Source of the DNA: Neorhizobium alkalisoli | Lineage (GTDB): Bacteria; Pseudomonadota; Alphaproteobacteria; Rhizobiales; Rhizobiaceae | Reading direction: 5' to 3' | Assembly (NCBI RefSeq): GCF_007829835.1 | Contig: NZ_VIWP01000001.1 | Location: 310,001 to 374,000 of the forward strand | DNA: 64,000 nucleotides | In this document: in pieces, positions 25,011-42,741 of the stretch | Numbering within the stretch: the first letter of the stretch is position 1 | How the letters are laid out: each line of letters opens with the position of its first letter | Notes under the pieces: model-generated | What the model saw: only the letters and a program-made list of their open reading frames with translations | What the model was told of the DNA's origin: nothing | Database searches by the model: none | Position numbers and translations under genes: made by a program

Positions 25011-25017
25011 TTTTTCG

Positions 25018-26979
25018 ATGAGCGCGCCAATAGAGTTTTCCGCAACCGTATCCGGCACCATTCGGGATGGCGTGCTAATCGTCACCCTCGACAGTCCGCC
25101 CGTGAATGCGACTTCGGCAGAAGTTCGTCGCGGCCTGAAAGCCATGCTGGAATTCGCGGAAAGCTCTGCTGAAACCACGGCGATCGTGCTGACGGGTGCT
25201 GGCAAAACCTTTATCGGCGGCGCCGATATCAAGGAATTCGGCAAACCGGCGGAAGAGCCCACCTTGCCTGCCGTCATCGAGGCGATCGAGGCTTTTGGCA
25301 AGCCGGTGGTCGCGGCCCTGAACGGGGCCGCGCTCGGTGGTGGGCTGGAAGTGGCGCTCGCCTGCCATATCCGCATCGCATCGGCAGTGGCACAGGTCGG
25401 CCTACCGGAAGTCAAGCTCGGCATCGTGCCCGGCGCCGGTGGCACGCAGCGCCTGCCGCGGCTGACGGGGATTGCGGTTGCGCTGGAGCTGATCGCATCG
25501 GGCCGGATCGTCAAGGCATCTGAGGCCCGGGCGCTCGGTATCGTCGATGACGTTGTCGAAGGCGATCTCACCGAGGCTGCGATTGCCGTGGCGAAAGCGA
25601 TGGTCGGAAAACCGCGGCGCCGGACGGGCGAACTTTCAGTAGCCGCTCTGGACCCGGCCGAAACGGAACGCGCATCGGCAAAAATCCTCGCCAAGGCACG
25701 AGGCCAAAAGGCGCCGGGCGAAGCCGTACGGCTCGTCCTCTCCGCCGCCCGCCCGCTGGCCGAAGGACTGGCGGATGAACGTGCTACTTTTCTTGCTCTC
25801 CGGGACAGTCGTGAGGCCGCAGCACTACGGCATGTGTTCTTTGCCGAGCGCGAGGCGGGCAAGGTCGCGGGTCTTGAAGGCGTCGAGCCTCGCGCCGTAG
25901 CCACGATCGGCATTTGCGGGCTTGGCCTGATGGGCAGCGGCATCGCCGTCGCCGCTCTTTCCGCTGGCTACCGTGTGATCGGTCTCGACCAAACCGCAGA
26001 TGCAGCGGAAAAGGGCCGGGAACGCATCATCGGCCTGATGGAGAAAAACCTTGCCTCGGGCCGGCTTGATCAGGCCAGTTTCGATGCCCAGAAAGCCCGG
26101 CTTTCGGTGACAGCGAACGATGCCGATCTGAGCCCCTGCGACCTCGTCATCGAAGCGGTGTTTGACGATCTCGCCGTCAAGACGGACCTGTTTCGCCGCC
26201 TCGACAAGGTTTTGCGGCCGGACGCGATCCTCGCCACCAATACCAGCTACCTGAACCCCGACGAGATCGCGGCAGTAACGCAACATCCCGAACGCGTGCT
26301 CGGCCTGCATTTCTTCTCGCCGGCCCATGTCATGCGGCTGCTTGAAGTCGTCCGTTGCGCAAAGACTGCACCGGACGTGCTGGCGACCGGGCTTGCCGTG
26401 GCGAAAAAGCTGCGCAAGCTCGCGATCGTCACCGGCGTCACCGAAGGCTTCATCGGCAACAGCATCTTTTCCGCCTATCGCCGTGAAGCGGAATTCCTGC
26501 TGGAAGACGGTGCCATGCCGGAAGAAATCGACAGGGCGCTGGAGGATTACGGTTTCCCGATGGGCCTGTTTGCCGTCTACGACATGGCCGGCCTCGAAAT
26601 CGCCTGGGCGCGCCGCAAGCGGCAGGCGGCGACCCGCGATCCTTCGGACCGCTATGTCGAGATCGCCGACCGGCTCTGCAAGGCAGGACGTTTTGGCCAG
26701 AAGGCCGGGCGCGGCTGGTATGTCTATCCAGAGGGCAAGCGCGTGGTCGATCCGGACGTGACCGCGATCATCGAGACGGCCAGAGCGAAAAAGGGCATCA
26801 CCCCGCGCAGCTTCTCGCAGGCCGAAATCCTCGAGCGCCTTCTCGCCGCCATGGCGGCGGAAGGGCAGCGTCTGCTTGCGGAAGGGATCGCGGCAAGGGC
26901 AAGCGATATCGATCTGGTGATGATCAACGGCTACGGTTTTCCGGCCCACAAGGGCGGGCCGATGTTTGCGGCCGGCTGA
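25018..26979 (+). CDS. Bifunctional enoyl-CoA hydratase/3-hydroxyacyl-CoA dehydrogenase (FadB/FadJ-like)
   Basis: A 653-residue fusion. Residues 10-190 form a crotonase domain (LTGAGKTFIGGADIKEFG, ALNGAALGGGLEVALACHIRIAS, GIVPGAGGTQRLPRLTG). Residues 295-480 are the NAD-binding 3HCDH domain (TIGICGLGLMGSGIAVAALSAGYRVIGLD, LVIEAVFDDLAVK, NTSYLNPDEIA, GLHFFSPAHVMRLLEVV), then two 3HCDH C-domains with GFIGNSIFSAYRREAEFLLEDGA and MINGYGFPAHKGGPMFAAG. It should finish beta-oxidation of the ring-opened CoA ester to acetyl-CoA and succinyl- or glutaryl-type products. The ATG at 25018 is 8 bp after the RidA stop; ribosome site is weak. Confidence 0.93.
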   Translation: MSAPIEFSATVSGTIRDGVLIVTLDSPPVNATSAEVRRGLKAMLEFAESSAETTAIVLTGAGKTFIGGADIKEFGKPAEEPTLPAVIEAIEAFGKPVVAALNGAALGGGLEVALACHIRIASAVAQVGLPEVKLGIVPGAGGTQRLPRLTGIAVALELIASGRIVKASEARALGIVDDVVEGDLTEAAIAVAKAMVGKPRRRTGELSVAALDPAETERASAKILAKARGQKAPGEAVRLVLSAARPLAEGLADERATFLALRDSREAAALRHVFFAEREAGKVAGLEGVEPRAVATIGICGLGLMGSGIAVAALSAGYRVIGLDQTADAAEKGRERIIGLMEKNLASGRLDQASFDAQKARLSVTANDADLSPCDLVIEAVFDDLAVKTDLFRRLDKVLRPDAILATNTSYLNPDEIAAVTQHPERVLGLHFFSPAHVMRLLEVVRCAKTAPDVLATGLAVAKKLRKLAIVTGVTEGFIGNSIFSAYRREAEFLLEDGAMPEEIDRALEDYGFPMGLFAVYDMAGLEIAWARRKRQAATRDPSDRYVEIADRLCKAGRFGQKAGRGWYVYPEGKRVVDPDVTAIIETARAKKGITPRSFSQAEILERLLAAMAAEGQRLLAEGIAARASDIDLVMINGYGFPAHKGGPMFAAG

Positions 26980-27081: not shown

Positions 27082-28236
27082 ATGTCTTCCATTGCCGATA
27101 TCACCCGTGAACTTGCCGATCTCGTTTCCTTCCCCACCGTCAGTGCCAGCTCCAATCTCGACCTGATCGACCATGTCGAAGCGCGCATGGCCCCTTTCGG
27201 CGCGCGGATGCGGCGCTTTCCGAATGCCGATGGCACCAAGGCGAATGTGCTGGTCAGCATCGGCCCGGAAGCGCCGGGCGGTATCGTCTTCAGCGGTCAT
27301 ACTGACGTCGTGCCGGTCGAAGGTCAGGCCTGGACGAGCGACCCATGGGTTTTGAAGGAAGCGAACGGCCAGCTCATCGGTCGCGGCGCGACCGACATGA
27401 AGGGCTTTCTCGCCTGCTGCATGGCCGCCGTGCCCGGAATCGTTGCAAAAAACCTCAAGCGTCCGGTGCATCTCGCCTTTTCCTATGACGAGGAAGTTGG
27501 CTGCACAGGTGTCGGCTCTATGGCGGAATGGATCGGACAGAGCGATCTGAAACCACGCCTTGCCGTAATCGGCGAGCCGACGCGCATGGATCTGGTCGCG
27601 GCCCATAAGGGCGGGCTGGTCGGCTGGTGCCGCATTCTCGGAAAACCCGGCCATTCCTCGCAGCCGGATCGTTATGTCAACGCGGTCATGGTCGGCGGCG
27701 AGATGGTGGCCGAGATCAACCGCATCCGCGAGGACATGCGCAACGGCCCGCGCTTCGAGGGCCTCGATCCGCCCTATTCGACCATCCAGGTCAACATCAT
27801 CCGCGGCGGCACGGCGGGCAACATCGTTGCCGAGCGTTGCGACGTGCAGTGGGAGATGCGGATCATTCCCGGCGAAAGCGATCAGGCGGTGCTGGAGCGG
27901 ATGAAGCATTTTGCCGCCGAAAAGCTAGAGCCGGCGATGAAGGCGATCGATCCGGCATGCGGCATCACTTTCGAGCTGCAGGCCCATATTCCCGGCCTCA
28001 AGCCGAATGATGATCCGACGCTCGATGCCGAACTGTTGCGCCTCCTCGGCAAGAACGAGGTCCACTATGTCTCCTATGGCACGGAGGCCGGCATATTCCA
28101 GATCGCCGGCGTGCCCTCGGTCATCATCGGTCCGGGCGATATCGCGGATGCGCACCAGCCGAACGAATCGATCGCGATTTCGGAACTCGAGCGCTGCGCC
28201 TCTTTCCTCGACAGGCTGACGGACAGCTGCTGCTGA
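27082..28236 (+). CDS. argE: ArgE-type acetylornithine deacetylase / M20 family amidohydrolase
   Basis: A 384-residue metallohydrolase. Zinc-site motifs: FSGHTDVVPVEGQAW (His, Asp), IGRGATDMKGFLACCMA (bridging Asp), FSYDEEVGCTGVGSM (Glu-Glu), VIGEPTRMDLVAAHKGGLVGWCRILGKPGHSSQPDRYVNAV and the C-terminal YGTEAGIFQIAGVPSVIIGPGDIADAHQPNE with the last His. It removes the acyl group from N-acetylornithine or related N-acyl amino acids. Its position between an aryl-CoA operon and an amide-hydrolysis cluster, not near arg genes, leaves open an N-acyl amino-acid role. Its stop directly abuts the stop of the convergent IclR gene. Confidence 0.85.
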   Translation: MSSIADITRELADLVSFPTVSASSNLDLIDHVEARMAPFGARMRRFPNADGTKANVLVSIGPEAPGGIVFSGHTDVVPVEGQAWTSDPWVLKEANGQLIGRGATDMKGFLACCMAAVPGIVAKNLKRPVHLAFSYDEEVGCTGVGSMAEWIGQSDLKPRLAVIGEPTRMDLVAAHKGGLVGWCRILGKPGHSSQPDRYVNAVMVGGEMVAEINRIREDMRNGPRFEGLDPPYSTIQVNIIRGGTAGNIVAERCDVQWEMRIIPGESDQAVLERMKHFAAEKLEPAMKAIDPACGITFELQAHIPGLKPNDDPTLDAELLRLLGKNEVHYVSYGTEAGIFQIAGVPSVIIGPGDIADAHQPNESIAISELERCASFLDRLTDSCC

Positions 28237-29025
28237 TCAGACCGCCGGGCGCTTTTCCGCAACCGGCACACGACGATAGCCGAGGGCTCGGCTGATTTCG
28301 TCGGCCGTATTGCGCAGCATCAGCAGCATCGCTTCGCGTCGTTCGAGATAACGGATCGTTGGGGCACCGAGATTGAGCGCCGCCGTGATGCTTCCATTGG
28401 CGTCGAAGACCGGCGCGGCGATGCCCGTCGAGCCGGTGACGAATTCCTGGTCGTTGATCGCGTAACCATCCCGGCGCACCCGCGCCAGCATGTCGCGAAT
28501 GACGGTGGGATCCGTCACCGTGTAGCGCGTGTAGGAGAGGAACTGGACCCGCTCCAGATAATTGTCCAGCGCGTCCTTCGAGGCATGGGCAAGCAGGACC
28601 CGGCCGGTCGCGGTGCAATAGGCCGCGATCGCCGCGTCCAGGTTGATATCGTAACGCACGCCCTGTCGGCTAACGCTTTTTGCCAGCCTTCGGATGTCGC
28701 AATGAGCGTTCATCGTCGCCAGGATGATGGTTTCCCCCGATTCGTCGCGCAGCTTTTCCATGAAGGGACGTGCGGTCAGCACGAGGGGCTCCTCATGCCG
28801 ACGGAAGGGAAAGCCGTGGCGGCTTGCCTCCACCAGCACGTATCGTCCGGCGGCGTCGCGAACCACATGACCGCGGGCGACTAGCGTCTGCACCAGACCA
28901 TGGGCACTGCTTTTCGGGAAGGACATGCTGTGGACAATATCAGCCAGCGAAACGGCATCCCGCTGGGTGGCGAGATATTCCAGCAGATCGAGAATGCGCC
29001 CCGCGCTCTTTATCTCGGAGTTCAT
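28237..29025 (-). CDS. IclR family transcriptional regulator
   Basis: A 262-residue regulator (start could also be 29046, adding 7 residues). The N-terminal winged helix reads AGRILDLLEYLATQRDAVSLADIVHSMSFPKSSAHGLVQTLVARGHVVRDAAGRYVL; the C-terminal effector domain has ETIILATMNAH, YDINLDAAIAAYCTATGRVLLA and TGIAAPVFDANGSITAALNLGAPT, the standard IclR ligand domain. It diverges from the CE4-family gene at 29132 over about 106 bp, so it probably controls that gene and perhaps the importer operon behind it. The ligand would be a breakdown product of the imported compound. Confidence 0.92.
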   Translation of the reverse strand: MNSEIKSAGRILDLLEYLATQRDAVSLADIVHSMSFPKSSAHGLVQTLVARGHVVRDAAGRYVLVEASRHGFPFRRHEEPLVLTARPFMEKLRDESGETIILATMNAHCDIRRLAKSVSRQGVRYDINLDAAIAAYCTATGRVLLAHASKDALDNYLERVQFLSYTRYTVTDPTVIRDMLARVRRDGYAINDQEFVTGSTGIAAPVFDANGSITAALNLGAPTIRYLERREAMLLMLRNTADEISRALGYRRVPVAEKRPAV

Positions 29026-29131
29026 ATATGTGAACGAAACCCCCATTGCTGACTACCGGTTCGGCTCATAACACTTCTGCCTAGAAACTTGCCACAACCT
29101 AAGACAGCATGCCGAAAGGGCGAATGTTTCC

Positions 29132-30055
29132 ATGAACGCAGCCAATAAGCAAAATGATATCTCCGAACCCTGGACCTGGCCGGATAGTGTCTGGCAGCAG
29201 AAGGTACAGAAGGTGCGCGCAGGCCGCTCGCTGCGACCGGCAAAATGGAAAAACGGCGCGCGCATGGCAGTGGCAATCTCCTTTGATTCGGATCATGAGA
29301 CGGTGGAACTGCGCAATGGCGGCGTTTCCTTCGGCAAGATGAGCCAGGGTCAGTACGGCGCCCGCGCCGGCTCGCCGCGTATCCTGCGCCTGCTTGAAAA
29401 ATACGGCGTTCCGGCCTCGTTTTTCATGCCGGCCGTATCGGCCATGATCAATCCGGAAGAGGTGAAGACCGTCATTTCCGCCGGCCATGAACTGGCGATC
29501 CACAGCTGGATCCACGAATTCAATTCCCGCCTCGACGAAGAGACCGAACGCGATCTCGCCTTGCGCGCAGCCGACGAACTGGAGCGCCTTTCGGGCGTGC
29601 GTCCGGTCGGCATGCGCACCGCATCCTGGGATTTCAGCCCCTATACGCTAAAAATCGCCCGCGAAATGGGCCTTCTCTACGATTCCTCGCTGATGGCCGA
29701 CGACGAGCCTTACGAGCTGCTGGAGGATGGCGAGCCGACCGGTATCGTCGAAATCCCGGTCGAATGGATTCGCGACGACGCGCCTTATGTGGCGATGGAC
29801 CGGATGACCGGCACGCGCCCCTATGGCGGCCCGGCCATGGTTTTCGACATCTTTTCCCGCGAGCTGGAAGCCGCCTATGAAGAGGGCGGGCTTTTCCAGC
29901 TGACGATGCACCCGCATCACATCGGCCACCGCTCGCGCATCTTCATTCTCGAAGAGATCATCAGGCTCGCCCAGTCCAAGGGCGATGTCTGGTTCACCAC
30001 GCATGCGGAGCTTGCCCGCTATTGCGCCGAGGAGGCCGACCTCTTCAAGTCCTGA
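29132..30055 (+). CDS. CE4/polysaccharide-deacetylase family amidohydrolase (PuuE/PgdA-like, possible cyclic imidase)
   Basis: A 307-residue NodB-fold protein without signal peptide. Metal-site motifs are AISFDSDHETVE (Asp-x-Asp) and ELAIHSWIHEF (His-xxx-His); MRTASWDFSPYTLKIAREMGLLYDSSLMADDEPY is typical of the HpPgdA/PuuE subgroup, which contains allantoinases and cyclic-imide hydrolases acting in the cytoplasm as well as peptidoglycan deacetylases. No export signal and the position beside an importer operon favour a small-molecule amide or imide as substrate. It has its own strong terminator. Confidence 0.85.
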   Translation: MNAANKQNDISEPWTWPDSVWQQKVQKVRAGRSLRPAKWKNGARMAVAISFDSDHETVELRNGGVSFGKMSQGQYGARAGSPRILRLLEKYGVPASFFMPAVSAMINPEEVKTVISAGHELAIHSWIHEFNSRLDEETERDLALRAADELERLSGVRPVGMRTASWDFSPYTLKIAREMGLLYDSSLMADDEPYELLEDGEPTGIVEIPVEWIRDDAPYVAMDRMTGTRPYGGPAMVFDIFSRELEAAYEEGGLFQLTMHPHHIGHRSRIFILEEIIRLAQSKGDVWFTTHAELARYCAEEADLFKS

Positions 30056-30066
30056 CAAACGATCCG

Positions 30067-30110
30067 GGCGCCTGTGCCATGGGAGGCTGCAGGCGCCATT
30101 TTCTATATTT
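30067..30110 (+). terminator. Rho-independent terminator after the CE4 gene
   Basis: GGCGCCTG (30067-30074) and CAGGCGCC (30090-30097) form a perfect 8-bp stem with a 15-nt loop, followed by ATTTTCTATATTTT. It separates the CE4 gene from the importer operon, whose promoter must lie in 30098-30150. Confidence 0.85.
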
Positions 30111-30155
30111 TCTTCAGATATTTAATCATCACAAACAACAATGAGGGTAAGGGAC

Positions 30156-31649
30156 ATGTCTGTAAGATTAACATCCATCGCCGCGGTTCTTCTGACGCTT
30201 GCATCGTCAGCCGCTTTTGCACAGTCCAAGGACGCGCTGACGATCGATCTCTCCGGCGATGCCGCGACGCTCGATCCCCACCTGCAGTGGGACACCAACA
30301 GCTACAGCATCTACCGCAATATCTTCGACAACCTGCTGACCCGCAATCCGGCCGGCGAGATCGTGCCGCAGATCGCAAAATCGTGGAAATATGCGGACGA
30401 CAAGACGATCGAATTCGAGATCCGTGACGACGTGACCTTCCAGGACGGCAGCAAGCTGACCGCCGAAGACGTCGCCTTCTCTATCAACCGCATCATCGAC
30501 CCGAAGCTGAAGAGCCCGCAGCTCACCCAGTTCGACCAGATCTCCAAGGCTGAGGTCAGCGGTCCGAACAAGGTGACGATGACGACCAAGTCCGCCTATC
30601 CGGCGCTGCTCGCCCAGCTCGTCAAGCTTTCGATCGTGCCGAAGGCCTATGTCGAAAAGGTCGGCGACCAGGAATTCAACGCCAAGCCGCTCGGTTCTGG
30701 TCCCTACAAGCTTGCCAACTGGCAGAAGGGCGTTCAGACCGAACTGGAAGCCTATGGCAGCTACTGGCGCGTCAAACCGCCTTTTGCGAAGGTGACCTTC
30801 CGCACCGTGCCGGATGCTTCCACCCGTCTCGCTGACCTGAAGACCGGCAAGGCCGACCTGATCGGCGGCGTGACCCCGGATCAGGCAGCCGGCATGAAGA
30901 GCGAAACCGCGATCAAGGTTCTGTCGGCTCCGACCGAACGCGTCGGTTACCTCTATATCAACGCTGAGGCCGGCCCGACCAAGGATGTCCGCGTCCGTCA
31001 GGCGATTGCCTATGCAATCGACCGCAGCGCGCTGATCGAGGCCCTGCTGGCCGGTTACGGCAACCCGGTCAATATCGTCGGCGCCAAGCCGATCTTCGGT
31101 TACACCGACAAGGTCGAAGGTTATGCCTACGATCCGGAAAAGGCGAAGGCCCTCGTCAAGGAAGCCGGAGCCGAAGGCGCCAAGCTCGAATTTCTGACCT
31201 CGCCCGCCTATAACCGTGCGACGATCGAAGCCATCCAGCAGATGATCAACGAGGTCGGTCTCAATGTCGAAATCGCATCCAGCGACCAGGCGACCTTCCT
31301 CAAGCGCCGCCAGGGCGAACCGGCCAATGCTGGCAGCATGGCCTTCGGCGCCTGGTCCTGCGCCTGCCAGGATGCGGACGGGATCATCTTCCCGCTCTTC
31401 CGCAGCGGCAGCATCTGGGCAAAATACAAGAACCCGCAATATGACGCTCTCGTCGACGGCGCCCGCGTGACGCTCGACAAGAACGAGCGGTTGGCCAAGT
31501 ACGAACAGGCCTACCAGATCCTGAAAGACGACGTGCCCGGCATCGGCCTTTATCAGGCTTTTGCGATCTATGGCGCCAACACCAAGCTCAACTGGACGCC
31601 CACCGCCAACGAGGCGATGTTCGTGACAGACATGAGCTGGCAGCAGTAA
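30156..31649 (+). CDS. ABC transporter substrate-binding protein, family 5 (peptide/opine/nickel type)
   Basis: A 497-residue periplasmic protein; GAGGGTAAGGGAC precedes the ATG, and a Sec signal peptide ends at SSAAFAQS. The mature start DALTIDLSGDAATLDPHLQWDTNSYSIYRNIFDNLL and FEIRDDVTFQDGSKLTAEDVAFSINRI are classic SBP_bac_5 features. It heads an eight-gene operon with two permeases, an SDR, two ATPases, a penicillin-acylase-like hydrolase and an FAD oxidase. Family members bind peptides, glycosides, opines or amides, so the substrate is best inferred from the downstream enzymes. Confidence 0.93.
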   Translation: MSVRLTSIAAVLLTLASSAAFAQSKDALTIDLSGDAATLDPHLQWDTNSYSIYRNIFDNLLTRNPAGEIVPQIAKSWKYADDKTIEFEIRDDVTFQDGSKLTAEDVAFSINRIIDPKLKSPQLTQFDQISKAEVSGPNKVTMTTKSAYPALLAQLVKLSIVPKAYVEKVGDQEFNAKPLGSGPYKLANWQKGVQTELEAYGSYWRVKPPFAKVTFRTVPDASTRLADLKTGKADLIGGVTPDQAAGMKSETAIKVLSAPTERVGYLYINAEAGPTKDVRVRQAIAYAIDRSALIEALLAGYGNPVNIVGAKPIFGYTDKVEGYAYDPEKAKALVKEAGAEGAKLEFLTSPAYNRATIEAIQQMINEVGLNVEIASSDQATFLKRRQGEPANAGSMAFGAWSCACQDADGIIFPLFRSGSIWAKYKNPQYDALVDGARVTLDKNERLAKYEQAYQILKDDVPGIGLYQAFAIYGANTKLNWTPTANEAMFVTDMSWQQ

Positions 31650-31679
31650 GCGCGACTAGATAAAGGCGGATCGAATACG

Positions 31680-32600
31680 ATGTTGAGATATGCCGTCCAG
31701 CGGCTGATTCAGGCTGTCATTGCGATTTTCGGCGTGCTCACCATCGTGTTCGTCGTCATGCACTTTTCCGGCGACCCGACGCTTCTGCTCGTGCCGCCGG
31801 ATGCCTCTGCCCAGATGATTGCGGAACTGCGCCACCAGCTCGGCTTCGACCAGCCGCTCTGGGTGCAATATCTGAATTACCTCGGCGGACTTATCCGCTT
31901 CGATTTCGGCCAGTCCGTCGTGCAGCGCATTCCCGCGATCGATATCGTCATGTCGCGCGTGCCCTATACGATGATGCTGGCCGGCGGTGCGATCGTCGTT
32001 GCGGTCGGTATCGGCATTCCGGCCGGGATCATGATGGCGACCCGGCGTGGCGGGTGGCTGGAGCGGGTGCTGACGGCCATCGTCGTCACCGGCCAGAGCG
32101 TGCCGACTTTCCTGTCCGGCATCCTGCTGATCTTCGTTTTCGCCGTCACCCTGCGCTGGCTGCCGACCTCGGGTTCAGGCGATTTCGCCTCGCTGATCAT
32201 GCCCTCGGTGGCGCTCGGGGCGCTCTCCATGTCGACCTTCGCCCGCATGACCCGCATCTCGATCATCGACGAACTCGGCAAGGACTATGTGCGGGCCGGC
32301 CGTGCCCGCGGCCTTTCCATGGGCTCGGTCGTCACCCGTCACGTCCTGCGCAATGCGGCAATCCCGGTCATCACCATTGCGGCGCTCGAGATCGGTAACC
32401 TGCTTGCCGGCGCTGTCATCGTCGAGACCGTCTTCGCATGGCCGGGCATCGGCCAGCTCGCCATCCAGTCGATCCAGTCGCGCGATTTTCTCGTCGTGCA
32501 GGTGATCGTGCTGCTGATTTCCTTCGTCTACGTGCTGACATCGGTCGCCGCCGACTTCGTTTACGCGCTGGTCGATCCGCGCATCCGTCTGGCCCGATAG
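31680..32600 (+). CDS. DppB-type ABC transporter permease
   Basis: A 306-residue inner-membrane protein with six predicted helices. It opens with MLRYAVQRLIQAVIAIFGVLTIVFVVMHFSGDPTLLL, the family N-terminal helix, and the coupling segment that contacts the ATPase is YVRAGRARGLSMGSVVTRHVLRNAAIPVITI. It pairs with the DppC-type permease 11 bp downstream and lies 30 bp after the binding-protein gene. Confidence 0.94.
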   Translation: MLRYAVQRLIQAVIAIFGVLTIVFVVMHFSGDPTLLLVPPDASAQMIAELRHQLGFDQPLWVQYLNYLGGLIRFDFGQSVVQRIPAIDIVMSRVPYTMMLAGGAIVVAVGIGIPAGIMMATRRGGWLERVLTAIVVTGQSVPTFLSGILLIFVFAVTLRWLPTSGSGDFASLIMPSVALGALSMSTFARMTRISIIDELGKDYVRAGRARGLSMGSVVTRHVLRNAAIPVITIAALEIGNLLAGAVIVETVFAWPGIGQLAIQSIQSRDFLVVQVIVLLISFVYVLTSVAADFVYALVDPRIRLAR

Positions 32601-32611
32601 GAGAGATTTTC

Positions 32612-33469
32612 ATGAACACAGCTCTCCTGACCACTCGCCTGCGTCGCGTGCCGATCTCTGTCATGATCGTCTGTCTGATCCTGACGATCATCGTCGTCCT
32701 CGCCATCCTGGCACCCTATGTGGCGCCGGTCGATCCGTCGAAACAGAACCTGCTCGGACGCCTGAAGCCACCGGGTTTCGAGCGCGGCGGCATCACCTAC
32801 TGGTTCGGCACCGACGATCTCGGCCGCGATCTCCTGTCACGCACGCTTTACGGCGCCGGCGTCTCGCTGGGCGTCGCAAGCCTCTCGGTCGTCGTCTCGA
32901 CCCTGGTCGGCGTCACACTCGGCATGGTCGCCGGCTGGTTCCGCGGCTCCGTCGAGATCGTCATCATGCGGCTGGTCGATATCATGATGTCGATCCCGGC
33001 CATTCTGCTTGCCGTGCTGACAGTCGCCGTGCTCGGACCGGGCTTTCTGAAACTCGTGCTGGTTCTCGGCCTCACCCGCTGGCCGCGGTATACGCGTGTC
33101 GCTTATGCCCAGACCCTGCAGGTCGCCAACCTGCCCTTCATCAAGGCGTCGGAACTGGCCGGTGCGGGAGCTGCGCGCATCCTCTTCCGCCATATCCTGC
33201 CGAATATCGCCGGCCCGATCCTGATCGTGGCAACGGCCGAATTCGGGTTGATGATCCTCATGGAGGCAGGCCTCTCCTTCCTCGGCCTCGGCATCCAGCC
33301 GCCGGCCGCAAGCTGGGGCGCGATCATGAGCGTCGGGCGCGAATATATCGAGCGCGCCTGGTGGATCGTCGCCTTTCCCGGCGCCTGCCTTTTCCTTCTC
33401 GTCTTTTCCGTCAACGTTCTGGGCGACTGGTTGCGCGACCAGCTCGATCCGCGTTCCCGCAGCCGCTGA
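32612..33469 (+). CDS. DppC-type ABC transporter permease
   Basis: A 285-residue membrane protein; GGAGAGATTTTC precedes the ATG. The N-terminal helix (VPISVMIVCLILTIIVVLAILAPYVAP) is followed by the DppC-typical periplasmic patch HWFGTDDLGRDLLSRTLYGA-like sequence (here YWFGTDDLGRDLLSRTLYGA). The EAA loop is FIKASELAGAGAARILFRHILPNIAGPILI, and LSFLGLGIQPPAASWGAIM is conserved near the C-terminus. Together with the preceding gene it makes the membrane channel. Confidence 0.94.
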   Translation: MNTALLTTRLRRVPISVMIVCLILTIIVVLAILAPYVAPVDPSKQNLLGRLKPPGFERGGITYWFGTDDLGRDLLSRTLYGAGVSLGVASLSVVVSTLVGVTLGMVAGWFRGSVEIVIMRLVDIMMSIPAILLAVLTVAVLGPGFLKLVLVLGLTRWPRYTRVAYAQTLQVANLPFIKASELAGAGAARILFRHILPNIAGPILIVATAEFGLMILMEAGLSFLGLGIQPPAASWGAIMSVGREYIERAWWIVAFPGACLFLLVFSVNVLGDWLRDQLDPRSRSR

Positions 33470-33496
33470 TTTTTCCGCATTTTCGAGGCTTTCACC

Positions 33497-34282
33497 ATGG
33501 AATTTGAGAACAAGACCATCGTCATTACCGGAGCCGCCGGCATTTTCGGCCGCTGGATCGCCGCCTATTTCGCAAAGGAAGGCGCCCGCCTGTGTCTCAG
33601 CGACGTCCGCATGGACGGGCTTGAAAGAGCGGTGAGCGAACTCGGCCTCGACCGCTCCAAGGTCCTGCTGCACGCGACAGAGCTGACCAGCGACGCCTCG
33701 ATGCTGGACCTCGTCGATCTCGTGAAGCGCGAGTGGAAGGCGCCGGATATTCTCGTCAACAATGCCGGCATCTATACCCGTTTCAGCCTGCTCGACATGG
33801 ATATTGCCGACTGGGACCGCGTCTTCGGCGTCAACCTGCGCGCGCCCTTCCTGCTTTCCCGCGAAATGGCCAAGCTGATGATCGCGGAAGGCAAGGCCGG
33901 TTCGATCGTCAACATTTCGTCGGGCGCCTCGCGCAAGATGACGCAAAACGGCGTGCCCTATTGCACCTCGAAAACCGCGATCGACCGGCTGTCCAAGGGG
34001 TTTGCCATGGAGCTTGCGGAATATGGCATCCGCGTCAATGTCGTCGAACCGGGTTTTGCGCCGGGCAGCGAGGTCAGCGAACTTTCCGACGATTACGTCA
34101 CCAACATGCTGAAGAATATCCCGCTCGGCCGCTCTAGTGGGCCGATGGATGCACCGGCGGCGATCGCCTATCTCTGCTCCGAAAAGGCCGGTTTCATCAC
34201 CGGTGCCACGCTTGCCGTCGATGGTGGCAATTCGATCGGAACTTACAAGCGCCCAGAGCGCGACGCTGCCAAGGCCGGTTGA
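33497..34282 (+). CDS. SDR family oxidoreductase inside the importer operon
   Basis: A 261-residue classical SDR placed between the permease and ATPase genes. NAD(P)-binding ITGAAGIFGRWIAAYFA has Ala-Ala-Gly-Ile-Phe-Gly in the usual TGxxxGIG loop, so the second Gly is kept but the loop is slightly unusual. NNAGIYTRF, catalytic Ser in SIVNISSGASRKM and YCTSK (Tyr-xxx-Lys) are intact. Insertion in a transporter operon implies that it acts on the imported compound, for example oxidising a hydroxyl released after hydrolysis. Confidence 0.9.
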   Translation: MEFENKTIVITGAAGIFGRWIAAYFAKEGARLCLSDVRMDGLERAVSELGLDRSKVLLHATELTSDASMLDLVDLVKREWKAPDILVNNAGIYTRFSLLDMDIADWDRVFGVNLRAPFLLSREMAKLMIAEGKAGSIVNISSGASRKMTQNGVPYCTSKTAIDRLSKGFAMELAEYGIRVNVVEPGFAPGSEVSELSDDYVTNMLKNIPLGRSSGPMDAPAAIAYLCSEKAGFITGATLAVDGGNSIGTYKRPERDAAKAG

Positions 34283-34292
34283 GGAGGACCTG

Positions 34293-35288
34293 ATGGAGGT
34301 TTCGCCAAGCCCGCTTCTGACCGTCGACAGCCTGACCATCGATATCGCTGGCGCCCATGTCGTCGATGACGTCTCCTTCACCGTCGCACCCGGCAGGGTC
34401 ATGGCTCTGGTGGGTGAATCCGGCTGCGGCAAGTCGCTCACCTCCTATGCCATGCTCGGCCTTCTGCCGCCCGCCGCCAAACGCACTGGCGGGCGGATCA
34501 TGCTGGAAAACACCGATCTCGCGTGCCTGACGGAACGCCAGTTCCGCAAGGCCCGCGGCAAGGATATTTCCATCATTTTTCAGGAACCGAGCGCCTCGCT
34601 CGATCCGCTCTCGACGGTCGGCACGCAGATCGCCGAGGCGTTTCGCGCCCATCACGGTGGATCGAAGGCGGAGGCGTTCGAAAAGGCGCGGCAGATGCTG
34701 GTCGATGTCGGCATTCCCGATCCGAACCGCCGCCTGCACCAATATCCGTTCGAACTCTCCGGCGGCATGTGCCAGCGCATCATGATCTCGATCGCGCTGA
34801 TTTGTGGTCCACGCGTTCTGGTCGCCGACGAACCGACGACCGCGCTCGACGTAACAATCCAGGCGCAGATCCTCGACCTGATGAAAAAGCTGGTCGCCGA
34901 GCGCGGCACGGCAATCGTGCTGATCACCCATGACATGGGTGTGGTTGCCGATATCGCCGACGATGTCGCCGTCATGTATGCCGGCCGGATGGCCGAAATC
35001 GCCCCGGTCCATGCGCTCTTCCGCGAACCGAAGCATCCCTATACGGCGCTTTTGCTTGCAAGCGTCCCGAAACTCGATCATGCGCCAAAGGCGGACCTGG
35101 CGACGATCGAGGGAATGGTGCCGACACCGAGCGAATTCGGTGTCGGTTGCCGCTTTCATGACCGCTGTCCTCTCTCGACCGACAAGTGTCGCAGCGAGGC
35201 CCCGCCGCTCTTCGATTGCGGCGACGGGCATCGCTCCGCCTGCTGGCATATCGACCGCATGGCGGAAATCCGCGCGGTGGCGGCATGA
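34293..35288 (+). CDS. DppD-type ABC transporter ATPase
   Basis: A 331-residue ATPase with GAGGAGG just before the start. Walker A GESGCGKS, Q-loop IIFQEPSASLDPLSTVG, signature LSGGMCQR (Met in place of Gln), Walker B RVLVADEPTTALD and the switch His in VLITHDMG are all visible. The C-terminal oligopeptide/dipeptide extension carries GCRFHDRCPLSTDKC, the cysteine cluster that binds an iron-sulphur centre in this subfamily. Overlaps the next gene by 4 bp (ATGA). Confidence 0.94.
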   Translation: MEVSPSPLLTVDSLTIDIAGAHVVDDVSFTVAPGRVMALVGESGCGKSLTSYAMLGLLPPAAKRTGGRIMLENTDLACLTERQFRKARGKDISIIFQEPSASLDPLSTVGTQIAEAFRAHHGGSKAEAFEKARQMLVDVGIPDPNRRLHQYPFELSGGMCQRIMISIALICGPRVLVADEPTTALDVTIQAQILDLMKKLVAERGTAIVLITHDMGVVADIADDVAVMYAGRMAEIAPVHALFREPKHPYTALLLASVPKLDHAPKADLATIEGMVPTPSEFGVGCRFHDRCPLSTDKCRSEAPPLFDCGDGHRSACWHIDRMAEIRAVAA

Positions 35289-36262
35289 GCGAGCAAAAGA
35301 ACGTTCTCGAAATCCGTGACGTCGCCGTGCATTTCGGCGGCAATGGCGGCCTCTTCGGCAAGTCCGGCGCGGTGGTGAAAGCCGTCAACGGTGTCACGCT
35401 GGATATCGTGCGTGGCGAGACGGTGGCGCTGGTCGGGGAATCCGGCTGCGGAAAATCCACGCTGTCCAACACGATCGTCGGCCTGCAGCAGCCGGTTGCC
35501 GGCAGCGTCAAAATCGGCGGCGAGGAAGTAGTCGGCGCCGACCGCAAAAAGCTGAACGACATCCGCCGCAAGGTGCAGATGATCTTTCAGGATCCGGCTC
35601 TGTCGCTCGATCCGCGTTCGACGATCGGAGCGACGATCGGCGAACCGCTGATCGTGCGTGGCGTCGCCAAGGGCAAGGCGCTGAAGGAACGCGTCGGCGC
35701 GCTTTTGGCCCAGGTGGGCCTGCGCCCCGAACACGCCGATCGTTACCCGCACCAGTTTTCCGGCGGCCAGCGGCAGCGAGTGGTGATCGCGCGCGCTCTG
35801 GCGCTCGAACCGGATCTCGTCATCTGCGACGAACCGGTTTCGGCGCTCGACGTTTCGGTACGCGCCCAGATCCTCAATCTGCTGGTGGCGCTGCAGAAGC
35901 GCACAGGCGTCTCTTACCTGTTCGTGTCTCACGATCTCGGCGTCGTCCGGCATATCTGCGACCGCGTCGTCGTGATGTATCTCGGCCGGTTCGTGGAAAT
36001 CGCCGATCGCGACACGTTCTTCGCCAATCCGAAGCATCCCTATACAAAAGCCCTGATGTCGGCCGTGCCGGAGGCCGATCCGGAGGTGCAGCGTTCCAAG
36101 GAGCGCCTTATCCTCGGCGGTGAGCTTCCGAGCCCGGCCAACATTCCCTCCGGCTGCGCTTTCCACACGCGCTGTCCGCTGGCGACGGAAATCTGCGGCC
36201 GCGAGCGCCCGGAACTGACTGTGCGGGACGACGGCGCCCGTGTGGCCTGCCATCACGCCTGA
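35285..36262 (+). CDS. DppF-type ABC transporter ATPase
   Basis: A 325-residue ATPase translationally coupled to the preceding one. Walker A GESGCGKST, MIFQDPALSLDPRSTIG, signature FSGGQRQR, Walker B LVICDEPVSALDVSVRAQ, and switch SYLFVSHDLGVVRHI. The C-terminus has GCAFHTRCPLATEICGRERPEL, the second Cys cluster. With the DppD-type subunit it forms the asymmetric ATPase pair of peptide-type importers, completing a full five-part transporter (30156, 31680, 32612, 34293, 35285). Confidence 0.94.
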   Translation: MSEQKNVLEIRDVAVHFGGNGGLFGKSGAVVKAVNGVTLDIVRGETVALVGESGCGKSTLSNTIVGLQQPVAGSVKIGGEEVVGADRKKLNDIRRKVQMIFQDPALSLDPRSTIGATIGEPLIVRGVAKGKALKERVGALLAQVGLRPEHADRYPHQFSGGQRQRVVIARALALEPDLVICDEPVSALDVSVRAQILNLLVALQKRTGVSYLFVSHDLGVVRHICDRVVVMYLGRFVEIADRDTFFANPKHPYTKALMSAVPEADPEVQRSKERLILGGELPSPANIPSGCAFHTRCPLATEICGRERPELTVRDDGARVACHHA

Positions 36263-36295
36263 ACGACCAAGACGCCGCAACGAAAAGAGACTGCC

Positions 36296-38653
36296 ATGAG
36301 CGATACCCCCGTCAACGAAACGATCGAACTTGCGGGTCTCGATGCCGCGGCGGAAATCCGGGTCGATCGCTGGGGCATTCCGCATATCCGGGCGGAGAAC
36401 GAAAAGGACCTGTTCTTCCTGCAGGGGTTTAACGCCGCCCGCGACCGGCTCTGGCAGCTCGATCTGTGGCGCAAGCGCGGCCTCGGCCTGCTCGCCGCCG
36501 ATTTCGGCCCCGGTTATCTCGCGCAGGACCATGCCGCCCGGCATTTCCTCTATCGCGGCGACATGGCGGCCGAATGGGTGTCTTACGCGCCGGACACAGA
36601 GGCGATCTGCACCGCCTTCGCGACCGGCATCAACGCCTATATCGCGCTTTGCGAGGCGGAGCCCGCACGCCTGCCGCCGGAATTTGCGGTCTTCGGCACA
36701 AAACCGGCTCGCTGGCAGCCATCGGATGTCGTCCGCATCCGCAGCCATGCGCTGACCCGCAACGGCCTGTCGGAAATTTTGCGCGCCAATATCATGGCCC
36801 GCACGGATGCCGAAACCGATCTCCTGCGCTTCGAACTCGATCCGCCGGTGATACCGGAACCCGCCGAGGGCATTGTGCTTGCCGATATCCCGATGGCCGC
36901 GACACGCCTGTTCAAGCTCGCGACCGCCGCTGTCACTTTCGACAAAGCGCGGCTGGCTGCCGGGATCGACGACATCTGGAAATGGACCGAGCTCACCGAT
37001 CTCGGCGACATCGTCCAGGCCGTCGCCGAACAGGGTTCCAACAACTGGGCCGTCCATGGCTCACGCACGGAGACGGGCCGCCCAATCCTCGCCAGCGACC
37101 CGCACCGCGCCCATGCCGTGCCGTCGCTGCGTTACCTCGTCCATCTCGAAGCCCCGGGCTTCAACGCGATCGGCACCGGCGAGCCGACCGCACCCGGCAT
37201 CTCGCTCGGCCACAACGACCGCAACGCCTTCGGCCTGACAATTTTCGGTGCCGATCAGGAGGATGTCTATATCTACGAGACGAAGGACGGCGATCCCGAC
37301 TCCTATCGTTATGGCGAAGGTTACGAGAAGATTGGGCGGATCGAAGAGAGTTTTGGCGTCAAGGGTCATCCCGACCAGACGCTGACCTTGTCCTTCACCC
37401 GCCACGGGCCGATCCTCCACGAAAATCCGCAAAAGCGGATCGCCATCGCCATGCGTTCGGTCTGGCTTTCACCCGGCTCGGCCGCCTATCTCGGCAGCCT
37501 GTCCTATATGCGCAGCGGCTCGGTAAAAGAGTTCGCCGAAACGCTCGGGTCCTGGGGTACGCCTTCGGTCAACCATGTCAGCGCCGACGTAACGGGCGAT
37601 ATCGGCTGGTTCACAGCCGGCTTCACGCCGGTGCGGCATAACTGGCAGGGCCTGCTGCCTGTACCCGGCGACGGCAGTTACGAATGGGACGGCTTTTTGC
37701 CTCCCGACCAACTGCCGCGCAAATACAATCCGGCGGAAGGTTTCGTCGCCTCCGCCAACGAGATGAACCTGCCGAAAGACCGTGATCCAGCCGCGCCGTC
37801 GATCGGCCATGAATGGGCCGAGGTCAGCCGCGCCGAGCGGATCAAAACCGTTCTGGCCAATGATCCGCGGCACACGCTGAAGGCCTCGATGGACCTGCAG
37901 ACGGATGTCTATTCCCGTCCGGCCGCCATCATTTGCGGGCTTCTAGGAGAGGTCGCCAAAAAGCATGCGCTGGATGCAGTGCAATTGCATGCTTCTGCGC
38001 TTCTCGATGGTTGGGATCACCGACTGGAAGCCACAAGTGCGCCAGCGCTGCTCTTCGAAGTCTGGTGGATGAAACACCTGCGCCCCGGTCTTCTGGCACG
38101 TTTTGCACCCGACCCGGTCGTGCGGCAATTGCTGCTGCCCGGCGATGTCGATCGCATGCTTTCGCTTCTGGCCGAACCCGGCGCCCATTGGCCAGCATCG
38201 GAGCGTGACGCCCTGCTGCTCTCGACCCTTTCGGCAGGCTTTGCCGATTGCGAGCGTCGGCTCGGGGCCGATCCCAAGGCGTGGCGCTGGGGCGATCTGC
38301 ATCGCGCGCTCTTCGAACACGCGACGGACCGGACCAGGACGGAGGATCGCGGCGCATGGAATGTCGGTCCGCTTTCGGTGGGCGGCAGCCGTTCCACGCC
38401 GATGCATGCGGCCTATCGTGTCGGTGATTTCGGCGTCAATTCCGGCGCCTCGGTGCGGCTCGTCATGGATGTCGGCTATTGGGACAACAGCGTCTGCATC
38501 AATGCCCCCGGCCAGTCGGGCGATCCGCGCTCCAGCCATTATGCCGATCTTTCCGGCCTATGGGCGAAAGGCGACTATGTGCCGCTTCTCTACAGCCGCG
38601 AACGGATCGCGGAAGAGACGCACGCACTGATCACCCTGCTTCCGAAGCGCTAG
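36296..38653 (+). CDS. Penicillin-acylase family Ntn-hydrolase, no signal peptide
   Basis: A 785-residue precursor of the N-terminal nucleophile hydrolase family (penicillin G, cephalosporin and acyl-homoserine-lactone acylases). The alpha part starts IRVDRWGIPHIRAENEKDLFFLQGFNAARDRLWQLDLWRKRGLGLLA; self-cleavage is expected before Ser248 in EQG-SNNWAVHGSRT, giving a beta chain of 538 residues with SDPHRAHAVPSLRY, the NHVSADVTGDIGWFTAG segment and a catalytic Asn region near ASANEMN. Classical members are periplasmic; here the N-terminus MSDTPVNETIELAGL is not a signal. Fused in one operon to an importer, it should hydrolyse an amide bond after uptake. Confidence 0.9.
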   Translation: MSDTPVNETIELAGLDAAAEIRVDRWGIPHIRAENEKDLFFLQGFNAARDRLWQLDLWRKRGLGLLAADFGPGYLAQDHAARHFLYRGDMAAEWVSYAPDTEAICTAFATGINAYIALCEAEPARLPPEFAVFGTKPARWQPSDVVRIRSHALTRNGLSEILRANIMARTDAETDLLRFELDPPVIPEPAEGIVLADIPMAATRLFKLATAAVTFDKARLAAGIDDIWKWTELTDLGDIVQAVAEQGSNNWAVHGSRTETGRPILASDPHRAHAVPSLRYLVHLEAPGFNAIGTGEPTAPGISLGHNDRNAFGLTIFGADQEDVYIYETKDGDPDSYRYGEGYEKIGRIEESFGVKGHPDQTLTLSFTRHGPILHENPQKRIAIAMRSVWLSPGSAAYLGSLSYMRSGSVKEFAETLGSWGTPSVNHVSADVTGDIGWFTAGFTPVRHNWQGLLPVPGDGSYEWDGFLPPDQLPRKYNPAEGFVASANEMNLPKDRDPAAPSIGHEWAEVSRAERIKTVLANDPRHTLKASMDLQTDVYSRPAAIICGLLGEVAKKHALDAVQLHASALLDGWDHRLEATSAPALLFEVWWMKHLRPGLLARFAPDPVVRQLLLPGDVDRMLSLLAEPGAHWPASERDALLLSTLSAGFADCERRLGADPKAWRWGDLHRALFEHATDRTRTEDRGAWNVGPLSVGGSRSTPMHAAYRVGDFGVNSGASVRLVMDVGYWDNSVCINAPGQSGDPRSSHYADLSGLWAKGDYVPLLYSRERIAEETHALITLLPKR

Positions 38654-38723
38654 AAAAGAGCTAAGAAGAGCGGCCGACAACAAGCGTATCCCCGAGTCGG
38701 CGCGATCAGGCAGGAATGCAGAT

Positions 38724-40124
38724 ATGACAATGGATCTGGCTTCGGATTTGATGGCGGCCTTGCGCGCGGCGATCGGCGACGATTTCGTCAAGCAGGGAAG
38801 CGACATTCCCGTAAAACATTGGTCCGATGCCACGGAAATGACGCCGGTCTGCCCGAAAGCGCTTCTGCTGCCCGGCTCGACGGCCGAGGTTTCCGCCGTT
38901 CTTGCCTTGTGTTTCAAGGCCGGCCAGCCGGTTGTGATCCAGGGCGGATTGACCGGCCTTGCCGCCGGTGCGCAGCCGCAGGAAGGCGAGATCGCGCTGT
39001 CGCTACAGCGCCTGAATGGCATCGAGGAGATCGACATCGAGAGCCGCACGATGATCGCCTTTGCCGGAACGCCTTTGCACGTCATTCACGAGGAAGCGCA
39101 GAAAGTCGGCCTGCATTACGGCGTCGATCTCGGCGCCCGCGGCAGCTGCACGATCGGCGGCAATGTCGCCACCAATGCCGGCGGTGTCCAGGCCGTGCGC
39201 TACGGCGTGACGCGCCGCAATGTGCTGGGCCTCGAAGCCGTACTGTCGGATGGTACGGTGCTGACCGGCCTCAACAAGATGCTGAAGAACAATACGGGTT
39301 ATGACTGGCCGCAGCTGATGATCGGCAGCGAAGGCACGCTCGGCGTCATCACCCGTGTGTCGCTGTCGCTCTCCCCAGCCCCGCCCGCATTCCAGACCGC
39401 ACTTTGCGCCGTTTCCGGCGTGGCGGATGCCGCCGCCGTTCTCGGACGGCTGGAACAGATTTTTCCCGGCCGGCTCGTCACCTTCGAGGGCATGTGGCGG
39501 GAATATATGGATGTGACCGCAAAGCTCGGCACATTGGCGGAACCCTTTGCCGAACGGCCCGAAATCACGCTGCTGATCGAAGCTGCCCTCGGCGACGGAC
39601 AGGAGGGGCAGGATCTGCTGGCGGAAGCGCTTTCGACGCTGATGGAAGAAGGCCGTGTTCAGGACGCGGTGCTTGCCCAGTCGCTGCAGGACCGCCAGCG
39701 TTTCTGGGCCTATCGGGAAGCCAATTACGAATTCCACCACATCATGCCCGCCGGCGAACATTTCGACATCAGCCTGCCGATGAATGTCATGGACGCGGCG
39801 ATTGCGCATATGCGGGCGGCAACAGCATCTGAAATGCCGGGCAGCACGTTTATCGCTTATGGCCATATGGCAGACAGCAATCTCCACCTTGCCGTCTATC
39901 CGGACGCATCCGCAAACGATGCCGCCGGCTCCAAAGCGATCGTTTATGACGCCGTCGGAATGTTCAAGGGCAGCATATCGGCCGAACACGGCATCGGCAT
40001 GCTGAAGCGGCCATACCTGTCACGCAGCCGCACGCCTGCGGAACTCGCTCTGATGAAGAGCCTGAAACAGACTTTTGACCCTGCCGCCATTCTCAATCGC
40101 GACCGGATTTTCGCCGCCGGCTGA
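38724..40124 (+). CDS. GlcD/D-2-hydroxyglutarate-dehydrogenase-like FAD-linked oxidase
   Basis: A 466-residue flavoprotein of the VAO/PCMH family. FAD-binding segments are VVIQGGLTGLAAGAQP, GVDLGARGSCTIGGNVATNAGGVQAVRYGVTRRNVLGLEAVLSDG and LMIGSEGTLGVITRVSLSL; the C-terminal FAD-oxidase cap has FIAYGHMADSNLHLAVYP and SAEHGIGMLKRPYL, with metal-site His residues. Family enzymes oxidise D-2-hydroxyacids (lactate, glycolate, 2-hydroxyglutarate). Last gene of the importer operon, 70 bp after the acylase gene; it probably oxidises a hydroxy acid released by hydrolysis. Confidence 0.92.
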   Translation: MTMDLASDLMAALRAAIGDDFVKQGSDIPVKHWSDATEMTPVCPKALLLPGSTAEVSAVLALCFKAGQPVVIQGGLTGLAAGAQPQEGEIALSLQRLNGIEEIDIESRTMIAFAGTPLHVIHEEAQKVGLHYGVDLGARGSCTIGGNVATNAGGVQAVRYGVTRRNVLGLEAVLSDGTVLTGLNKMLKNNTGYDWPQLMIGSEGTLGVITRVSLSLSPAPPAFQTALCAVSGVADAAAVLGRLEQIFPGRLVTFEGMWREYMDVTAKLGTLAEPFAERPEITLLIEAALGDGQEGQDLLAEALSTLMEEGRVQDAVLAQSLQDRQRFWAYREANYEFHHIMPAGEHFDISLPMNVMDAAIAHMRAATASEMPGSTFIAYGHMADSNLHLAVYPDASANDAAGSKAIVYDAVGMFKGSISAEHGIGMLKRPYLSRSRTPAELALMKSLKQTFDPAAILNRDRIFAAG

Positions 40125-41856: not shown

Positions 41857-41861
41857 GCTTC

Positions 41862-41892
41862 GAGGTAAGGGGCTGAAGCCGCTCCTTACCTC
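41862..41892 (+). terminator. Hairpin after the GH16 gene
   Basis: GAGGTAAGG (41862-41870) and CCTTACCTC (41884-41892) pair perfectly 6 bp after the stop codon. Its right arm runs into the repeat at 41889, so the terminator may be built partly from that element; no T-run follows. Confidence 0.5.
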
Positions 41893-42005: not shown

Positions 42006-42036
42006 TCGAGGAGACTTTTGTGCGTTCTGGGAGCAT

Positions 42037-42690: not shown

Positions 42691-42741
42691 CTGAAAACTT
42701 TCCGAATTTATTGAAGGCACTTTTGTCGGCGAAGGCGATCC

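Follow-up and report, generated by a model that had tools for sequence, protein, structure and literature searches.

Gene content of the locus

We analysed a stretch of 64,000 nucleotides from the 7.0 Mb genome of Neorhizobium alkalisoli (C1:310001-374000, hereafter the window), in which a divergently transcribed gene for an IclR-family regulator precedes a run of genes for a CE4 hydrolase, a peptide-type ATP-binding cassette (ABC) importer with an embedded short-chain dehydrogenase/reductase (SDR), and an acylase of the S45 N-terminal nucleophile (Ntn) hydrolase family. An earlier note on this DNA had proposed an amide/imide uptake and breakdown island at 27082-40124 that also took in an ArgE-like deacylase at one end and a D-hydroxyacid oxidase at the other. 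All of the open reading frames that it listed are present, and profile searches with Pfam and NCBIfam bear out its gene families at the family level, each scoring above the Pfam cut-off. The features that concern us are as follows.

27082-28236, plus strand: ArgE-like M20 deacylase (Pfam M20), flanking and outside the conserved module
28237-29046, minus strand: IclR-family regulator (PF01614/PF09339), divergent from the catabolic genes
29020-29035, no strand: candidate IclR operator GTTCATATATGTGAAC, an inverted repeat with perfect arms GTTCA/TGAAC
29132-30055, plus strand: CE4 hydrolase (PF01522), proposed cyclic imide/amide ring opener
30141-31649, plus strand: peptide-type solute-binding protein (SBP_bac_5, PF00496)
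31680-32600, plus strand: ABC permease of DppB/NikB type (NCBIfam Opp2B 299 bits, cut-off 350)
32612-33469, plus strand: ABC permease of DppC/NikC type (NCBIfam Opp2C 277 bits, cut-off 300)
33497-34282, plus strand: SDR dehydrogenase inside the importer operon (PF13561)
34293-35288, plus strand: ABC ATPase of DppD type (profile search)
35285-36262, plus strand: ABC ATPase of DppF type (PRK11308 409.3 bits, cut-off 408)
36296-38653, plus strand: S45 Ntn-hydrolase of the penicillin-amidase family (PF01804, 655 bits), proposed half-amide hydrolase
38724-40124, plus strand: GlcD-like FAD-linked oxidase (Pfam FAD-linked oxidase), flanking and outside the conserved module
18495-26979, plus strand: aromatic-CoA operon, upstream neighbour of the ArgE gene

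From 29132 onwards the genes for the CE4 hydrolase, the solute-binding protein, the two permeases, the SDR, the two ATPases, the acylase and the oxidase all run in the same direction with gaps of no more than 85 bases. The SBP_bac_5 protein, two permeases and two ATPases encoded in one operon place the importer in the SBP5 peptide/nickel class. By eye the start of the solute-binding protein resembles a signal peptide, and its nearest solved structure among 87 matches is 5u4o, followed by the agrocinopine-binding group. A scan for promoters and terminators detected 3 and 6, respectively, against 3.5 and 10.0 expected.

Extent and conservation of the core module

Comparison with related genomes shows that the conserved core spans 28237-38653 and comprises iclR, the CE4 gene, the peptide-type ABC importer with its embedded SDR, and the S45 acylase. 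It is smaller than the island first proposed, as the ArgE and FAD-linked oxidase genes fall outside it. Judged by the CE4 protein, the closest relatives are Rhizobium oryzicola (97%) and members of Neorhizobium. We compared stretches of 19–20 kb from 20 other genomes of the genus that bear a CE4 orthologue (79–97% identity), mostly extending about 6 kb past iclR on its upstream side and 3.5 kb past the acylase gene on the other; one stretch (L058) begins at a contig end and its upstream side is not visible. The order iclR, CE4, solute-binding protein, permeases, SDR, ATPases is the same in all 20, and the acylase gene comes next in 19 of them. Recurrence on this scale means that the grouping of these genes is not due to chance.

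As a wider sample, the best 80 of 305 named loci, picked by CE4 similarity, were scanned by tblastn; they derive partly from the same genomes as the genus set. Half of them (40/80) hold a complete orthologous importer, and among these 40 the SDR is present in every case, iclR (at least 45% identity) in 30, the acylase (at least 60%) in 32 and an M20 peptidase of PRK07473 type in 16. The last of these, which elsewhere lies 3' of the acylase gene, is found in all 21 CE4-bearing genomes of the genus and also in 17 of the 36 others; in the genome of the window it is on a different contig.

The CE4 hydrolase and the acylase are kept together

Across 57 genomes of the genus, the CE4 hydrolase (at least 79% identity) occurs in 21 and the acylase in 21, and these are the identical 21 genomes (Fisher p ~5e-16, relatedness ignored). 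Among 394 genomes at family level, scored on the best few candidates per genome with cut-offs of our own choosing (CE4 E 1e-140, acylase at least 67%), the CE4 hydrolase is found in 11, of which three belong to the genus, and in every one of the 11 the acylase (67–100%) is encoded on the same contig.

In one genome (G053) the two are unlinked, an acylase-less block being located on one replicon and the acylase gene on another. In phylogenetic trees the CE4 hydrolase, SDR, solute-binding protein, DppF-type ATPase and DppC-type permease of G053 cluster with those of five genomes (support 0.946–1.0), while the acylase clade of these five genomes excludes the G053 acylase (support 1.0; UFboot 100). 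G053 thus seems, from these trees, to have replaced a lost acylase by a phylogenetically different one.

At order level 36 acylase places were listed from 397 genomes, and 20 of the 35 that lie outside the window's own genome were examined. A CE4 gene of the same family is located within about 12 kb of the acylase gene in seven of these 20 distant loci, which come from six families. The CE4 identity is 74% in L197, 59% in L198 and 33–38% in the other five, and the importers beside these pairs are of different kinds: peptide type in L197 (by homology), SBP_bac_3 in L198, Peripla_BP_6 in L200 (with the same layout in L199) and Peripla_BP_4 in L201 (with L202 and L203 assigned by layout). In L198 (genome G265, 508-16264) a class III aminotransferase gene adjoins that for the CE4 hydrolase (59%), and SBP_bac_3-type ABC genes and an S45 acylase (47%) complete a segment of about 16 kb; an aminotransferase at this position would be in line with the release of an amine. 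The same 21 of 57 genomes and the seven of 20 distant loci together indicate that an imidase-type enzyme and an amide-cleaving enzyme are kept together.

The S45 acylase

The nearest solved chains to the acylase are those of a D-succinylase from Cupriavidus sp. P4-10-C (7eby and 7ea4), at 737 and 734 bits against no more than 181 for any other. The two proteins belong to the same S45 branch, with 285 of 601 aligned residues identical over the blocks that were counted. An S45 Ntn-hydrolase is expected to have a catalytic serine at the N-terminus of the beta-chain and equivalents of Asn241 and Arg263 (reference positions from PMC11241749, Table 1), and these correspond to S248, N488 and R512 of the window acylase. 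The catalytic residues of D-succinylase are likewise kept: Ser248, His270, Asn488 and Arg512 are found in 40 of 40 sampled acylase sequences, the window's own included. No signal peptide was seen by eye, and so the acylase is probably cytoplasmic.

The active site is only partly that of D-succinylase. R350, Y352 and E460 of that enzyme are replaced by I316, G318 and V425, G181 by A152 and I338 by L304. Since the first three differ, a succinyl half-amide is not assured as the substrate. Conversely, Arg271 (equivalent to R305 of D-succinylase) and Ser303 are conserved in 40 of 40 sequences and Ser401 in 39 of 40.

Plants make N-malonyl D-amino acids, and the module might serve plain scavenging that involves no imide, the acylase removing a malonyl- or succinyl-type acyl group from imported plant N-acyl D-amino acids and the CE4 hydrolase removing a second acyl group. 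The relationship to D-succinylase, the conservation of Arg271, Ser303 and Ser401, and the M20 peptidase-type deacylase that follows the acylase gene in 16 of 40 loci are all consistent with such a role. D-succinylase has been used for the production of D-Phe and D-Trp, and L-isomers are reportedly accepted too (available part of PMC7431475). However, the three tabulated active-site residues differ, the CE4 hydrolase falls within a group that acts on cyclic substrates (see below), and scavenging leaves unexplained why hydantoinase A should stand in place of the acylase in related clusters. The open-licence literature searched on N-malonyl and N-succinyl D-amino acids held no account of the module. 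We consider this explanation unlikely, while giving it some weight.

The CE4 hydrolase and its alternative partners

A predicted model of the CE4 hydrolase was compared with solved structures by running a structural aligner on chains ranked by Foldseek. It has a NodB fold nearest to the PuuE/HpPgdA group, other CE4 enzymes following only after a gap, and its identity to structures of this type is 25–35%. The subgroup named in the earlier note (imidase/allantoinase) therefore holds as a statement about the subgroup, and PuuE itself is not called, since the PuuE model TIGR03212 gives 83.8 bits where 424.6 are required. Residues D52, D54, H124 and H128 are invariant in 25 of 25 sequences and form a candidate Asp/His/His metal site, which we take to be the usual CE4 motif. 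As for the acylase, no signal peptide was seen by eye.

Another alternative is the recycling of cell-wall or peptide fragments that contain D-amino acids, the CE4 hydrolase acting as an HpPgdA-like enzyme. HpPgdA-like CE4 genes adjoin those for polyamine importers and D-Ala-D-Ala peptidases (available part of PMC3084791), and the importer of the module is itself of peptide type; it follows from the same source that an association of CE4 genes with importers is not in itself new. On the other hand, HpPgdA showed no activity on allantoin or on any other compound tried, as far as the available part of PMC3084791 goes, and profile scans revealed no peptidoglycan gene in the block. A function in recycling cell-wall or peptide fragments appears quite improbable.

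Hydantoinase, creatininase and isoaspartyl peptidase act on cyclic amides or isopeptides, and all three occur near relatives of the CE4 gene. The S45 acylase is present in 32 of the 80 named loci, hydantoinase A (at least 50% identity to the Bosea protein) in 15, and isoaspartyl peptidase and/or creatininase in three (both in L122, one each in L126 and L127). At the cut-offs used, no locus among the 80 combines partner hydrolases of more than one of the three kinds. Below them, L082 has the acylase together with a 35% hydantoinase A-like gene, and four other loci have hydantoinase A-like genes at 33–34%. The 15 hydantoinase A loci contain hydantoinase B in 10 cases, an SDR in 14, peptide-type permeases in 10 and IclR in eight; as the SDR, permeases and regulator are only partly present, the core is not complete everywhere.

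One group with hydantoinase consists of four clusters from Bosea and a Rhizobiales isolate (L119 and L123–L125). Like the window, these encode the CE4 hydrolase (69–72%) and a related IclR (51–58%), and they carry a near-identical operator, exact in L123–L125 and with one mismatch in L119. They differ in encoding hydantoinase A/B instead of the S45 acylase and in their importer permeases, which are only 39–40% identical. Their layout, seen in L123 at 9105-20880, is IclR-SDR-CE4-HyuA-HyuB-SDR-peptide importer.

Paralogues of the CE4 hydrolase are found in sister clusters of another kind. Those of L037 (5460-10732) and L039 comprise genes for GntR, a creatininase-family protein, a 2-dehydropantoate reductase-like protein, an SDR and isoaspartyl peptidase; L122 holds part of this set, and L060 has importer genes. 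Annotated plasmid records show the layout GntR, creatininase, 2-dehydropantoate reductase-like, SDR, CE4, isoaspartyl peptidase. The genome of the window itself encodes a second CE4 protein (63%) with importer genes of its own.

The IclR regulator and its candidate operator

The inverted repeat GTTCATATATGTGAAC at 29020-29035 lies at the divergent iclR/catabolic promoter. Of the 42 iclR-bearing named loci, 35 have an exact copy no more than 250 bases from the start of iclR, and all 42 have a copy with at most two mismatches; the exact copies include those of three Bosea hydantoinase clusters (IclR 52–58%) and of L149, where IclR is only 37% identical. A plus-strand scan of 1.47 Mb of loci gave 36 exact matches. 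Exact copies remote from an iclR start turn up in L151, L197 and L204. The operator proposed for the wider set of cassettes reads GTTCAY-N3-YRTGAAC.

Within the window the site is the only one with at most one mismatch, and in the whole 7.0 Mb genome the arms occur at four places against one for the control. On window statistics alone it is unremarkable (0.24 matches expected, with 6 of 100 shuffles reaching 2). The weight of the operator lies instead in its conservation across sister clusters. Since the site shares bases with the initial codons of the iclR frame as annotated, coding constraint could account for part of this conservation, and common descent could also contribute. A conserved inverted repeat at a divergent promoter is what is expected of an autoregulated IclR unit, and we regard it as a putative operator.

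The ArgE and oxidase genes

Neither the ArgE nor the oxidase gene was found in any of the 20 genus stretches that hold the core, and among the 40 named loci with a complete importer there is one ArgE homologue (at least 40% identity) and no oxidase homologue. No copy of the operator was found near either gene in a scan of the window. In each of the six loci inspected (L187–L190, L194 and L196), the ArgE gene is part of a different peptide-type importer cluster or adjoins one; the aromatic-CoA operon found before ArgE in the window also precedes this cluster in L189, L190 and L194. For this reason the window ArgE looks like a leftover of another importer cluster.

The gene first read as a D-hydroxyacid oxidase belongs to the FAD-linked oxidase family and is GlcD-like, with a score of 229.5 bits that is below the GlcD cut-off of 567.9. 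Orthologues (68–69%) are present in three other genomes of the genus, none of which has a CE4 orthologue. The gap of 70 bases between the acylase and oxidase genes means that the oxidase is possibly co-transcribed with the module in this genome.

Several observations nevertheless speak for a single route running from ArgE through to the oxidase, and thus count against the limits that we have drawn. The genes are adjacent in this genome, with the 70-base gap between acylase and oxidase. ArgE orthologues are found in 15 of the 21 CE4-bearing genomes of the genus against four of the 36 others (Fisher p 5e-6, relatedness ignored), and 13 of the 14 genomes that have an oxidase homologue of 42–47% identity also bear CE4. 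The nearest relative, G018, has ArgE about 22 kb from CE4 on the same contig, and in G018 and G053 (L187 and L188) ArgE is accompanied by importer genes and by a GlcD-like oxidase homologue (43–44%) within 2–3 kb. The sole ArgE homologue in the named loci (43%) adjoins the acylase gene in Paracoccus (L120). Given the proximity of the two in G018 and G053, ArgE and an oxidase may belong together, in a separate system. Weighed against the missing linkage in the genus stretches and named loci and the association of ArgE with another importer in six of six cases, a single pathway including both is very improbable, and we rejected ArgE and the oxidase as members of the module. The island first proposed therefore stands for the regulator, importer, SDR, CE4 hydrolase and acylase, which are conserved together, and is not supported for the two flanking enzymes, whose linkage to the importer is not conserved.

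The upstream aromatic-CoA operon and other neighbours

The operon at 18495-26979 begins with a gene for a salicylyl-/anthraniloyl-CoA hydroxylase (NF006101 1339 bits, cut-off 1078). It also encodes an SDR, a cupin (by eye), an enoyl-CoA hydratase, an acyl-CoA dehydrogenase, a thioesterase, a RidA-family protein and a short fusion of enoyl-CoA hydratase with 3-hydroxyacyl-CoA dehydrogenase; PRK08258 is matched in the operon at 482 bits (cut-off 330), and three of the members have Pfam support. We considered whether the fadJ-like gene before ArgE had been truncated by an insertion, and rejected this because its end is nearly the same in those relatives whose gene ends were compared.

The module might feed this operon, the importer taking up a conjugate of salicylate, anthranilate or oxindole from which the acylase frees an aromatic acid or amine. 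The whole block lies behind the operon in the window, and in G053 the same operon is followed directly by an M20 peptidase gene and then by that for the S45 acylase (L195, 7649-11462); the hydroxylase, moreover, is above its cut-off. Yet the physical linkage is seen in only two of the 21 CE4-bearing genomes of the genus. The hydroxylase is missing from three of these 21 and its presence is not associated with that of CE4 (18/21 against 26/36, Fisher p 0.33), and the hydroxylase, fusion and acyl-CoA dehydrogenase were found in none of 100 further loci, some from repeated genomes. We judge a dedicated aromatic feed improbable, and treat the operon as a neighbour and a possible sink for any aromatic acid released. 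Auxin/oxindole catabolism, suggested by the hydantoinases and the anthraniloyl-CoA operon, was set aside; neither 'hydantoinase' nor 'deacetylase' occurs in the available part of PMC12633357. Pantothenate, acyl-homoserine lactone and opine routes were likewise set aside, as nothing specific to them was seen in the block.

Downstream, at 40423-44613, the window encodes an EglC endo-1,3-1,4-beta-glycanase (845 bits, cut-off 700), followed by a cysteine hydrolase of biuret/RutB type (below cut-off) and RecQ on the opposite strand. ARAGORN predicts a tRNA-Lys of 97 bases at 27993-28089 on the minus strand, within the ArgE frame, which is probably a false positive.

A possible pathway for cyclic imides or hydroxy-lactams

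Taking together what was observed directly, namely the co-conservation of the core genes, the joint occurrence of CE4 hydrolase and acylase, the candidate operator and the enzyme subgroups, we infer activities and a substrate as follows. Our tentative reading, which we put somewhat short of an even chance, is that the core, under the control of IclR, serves to break down an N-substituted cyclic imide or hydroxy-lactam. The importer, of observed peptide type, would take up such a compound, and the SDR would oxidise the ring hydroxyl of a hydroxy-lactam to give the imide. The CE4 hydrolase, going by its structural subgroup, would then hydrolyse one C-N bond of the ring, and the cytoplasmic S45 acylase, going by its family and intact catalytic residues, would split the half-amide so formed, giving an acid of dicarboxylic type and an amine. 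That the hydrolases seen in place of the acylase (hydantoinase, creatininase, isoaspartyl peptidase) also work on cyclic amides or isopeptides speaks for this reading.

The same order of enzyme types is known from the nicotinate (hxn) pathway of Aspergillus nidulans, where an SDR is followed by an HpPgdA-like cyclic imidase and then by an amidase: HxnW makes 3-hydroxypiperidine-2,6-dione, HxnM opens the ring and HxnN cuts the amide (available part of PMC9304392). HxnM is 64% identical to a Pseudomonas putida cyclic imide hydrolase homologue and structurally like HpPgdA; the P. putida enzyme is named in the same text. The hxn pathway differs in that HxnN is a FAAH-like amidase and not an S45 enzyme, and in its substrate, 3-hydroxypiperidine-2,6-dione (available part of PMC9304392). 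The likeness is one of the order of enzyme types, and not of a direct comparison of the window SDR and CE4 hydrolase with HxnW and HxnM. Bacterial cyclic imide metabolism, with an imidase and a half-amidase reportedly found in Blastobacter A17p-4, shares the two-step logic of imide and then half-amide; its half-amidase is not known to be of S45 type, nor are an importer and an IclR operator known to be part of it.

A number of points weigh against a catabolic unit for imides or hydroxy-lactams. We know of no activity for this CE4 subfamily, and the inactivity of the related HpPgdA and the replacement of three D-succinylase residues described above also tell against it. The SDR is of a generic kind, and no NCBIfam model among the best 25 of 230 reaches its cut-off with it. 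The acylase was not seen in eight of the 40 loci with a complete importer (L100, L111, L113–L116, L121 and L129), some of which are cut by contig ends, L111 and L113 starting at one; and in 30 of the 80 CE4 loci no partner hydrolase of any of the three kinds reaches the cut-offs. Four loci of Rhizobium rhizogenes type (L088, L089, L091 and L092) show only iclR, CE4, the solute-binding protein and M20; in the stretch covered, permeases, an orthologous SDR and the acylase were not seen. Three genomes at family level have an acylase (55–58%) with no CE4 hydrolase at the cut-off, and no CE4 gene is nearby in 13 of the 20 distant acylase loci.

No description of a module of CE4 hydrolase, S45 acylase, SDR and importer, nor of such a set tied to a substrate, was found in the open-licence literature searched (for cyclic imides, the best 25 of 606 entries). 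The gene combination thus appears to be undescribed, as had been supposed when the locus was first noted.

It is possible, though doubtful, that the window represents a widespread and unrecognised family of imide/lactam cassettes in which one CE4 ring opener is central and its amide-cleaving partner interchangeable. Such cassettes might, at the same doubtful level, contain an SDR and an importer as a rule and IclR with its operator in many cases, the partner being S45, hydantoinase A/B, or creatininase and/or isoaspartyl peptidase. For assays, a broad screen can give way to three candidate targets, namely two enzymes and the binding protein. If the proposal is correct, two large and mis-named groups, the 'polysaccharide deacetylases' of the PuuE group of CE4 and the S45 'penicillin acylases', would gain a physiological role, and many 'penicillin acylases' from this branch would have as their natural task the cutting of imide half-amides, rather than of beta-lactams or quorum signals. 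Cyclic imides or hydroxy-lactams would then be nutrients that plant-associated bacteria import by means of dedicated importers.

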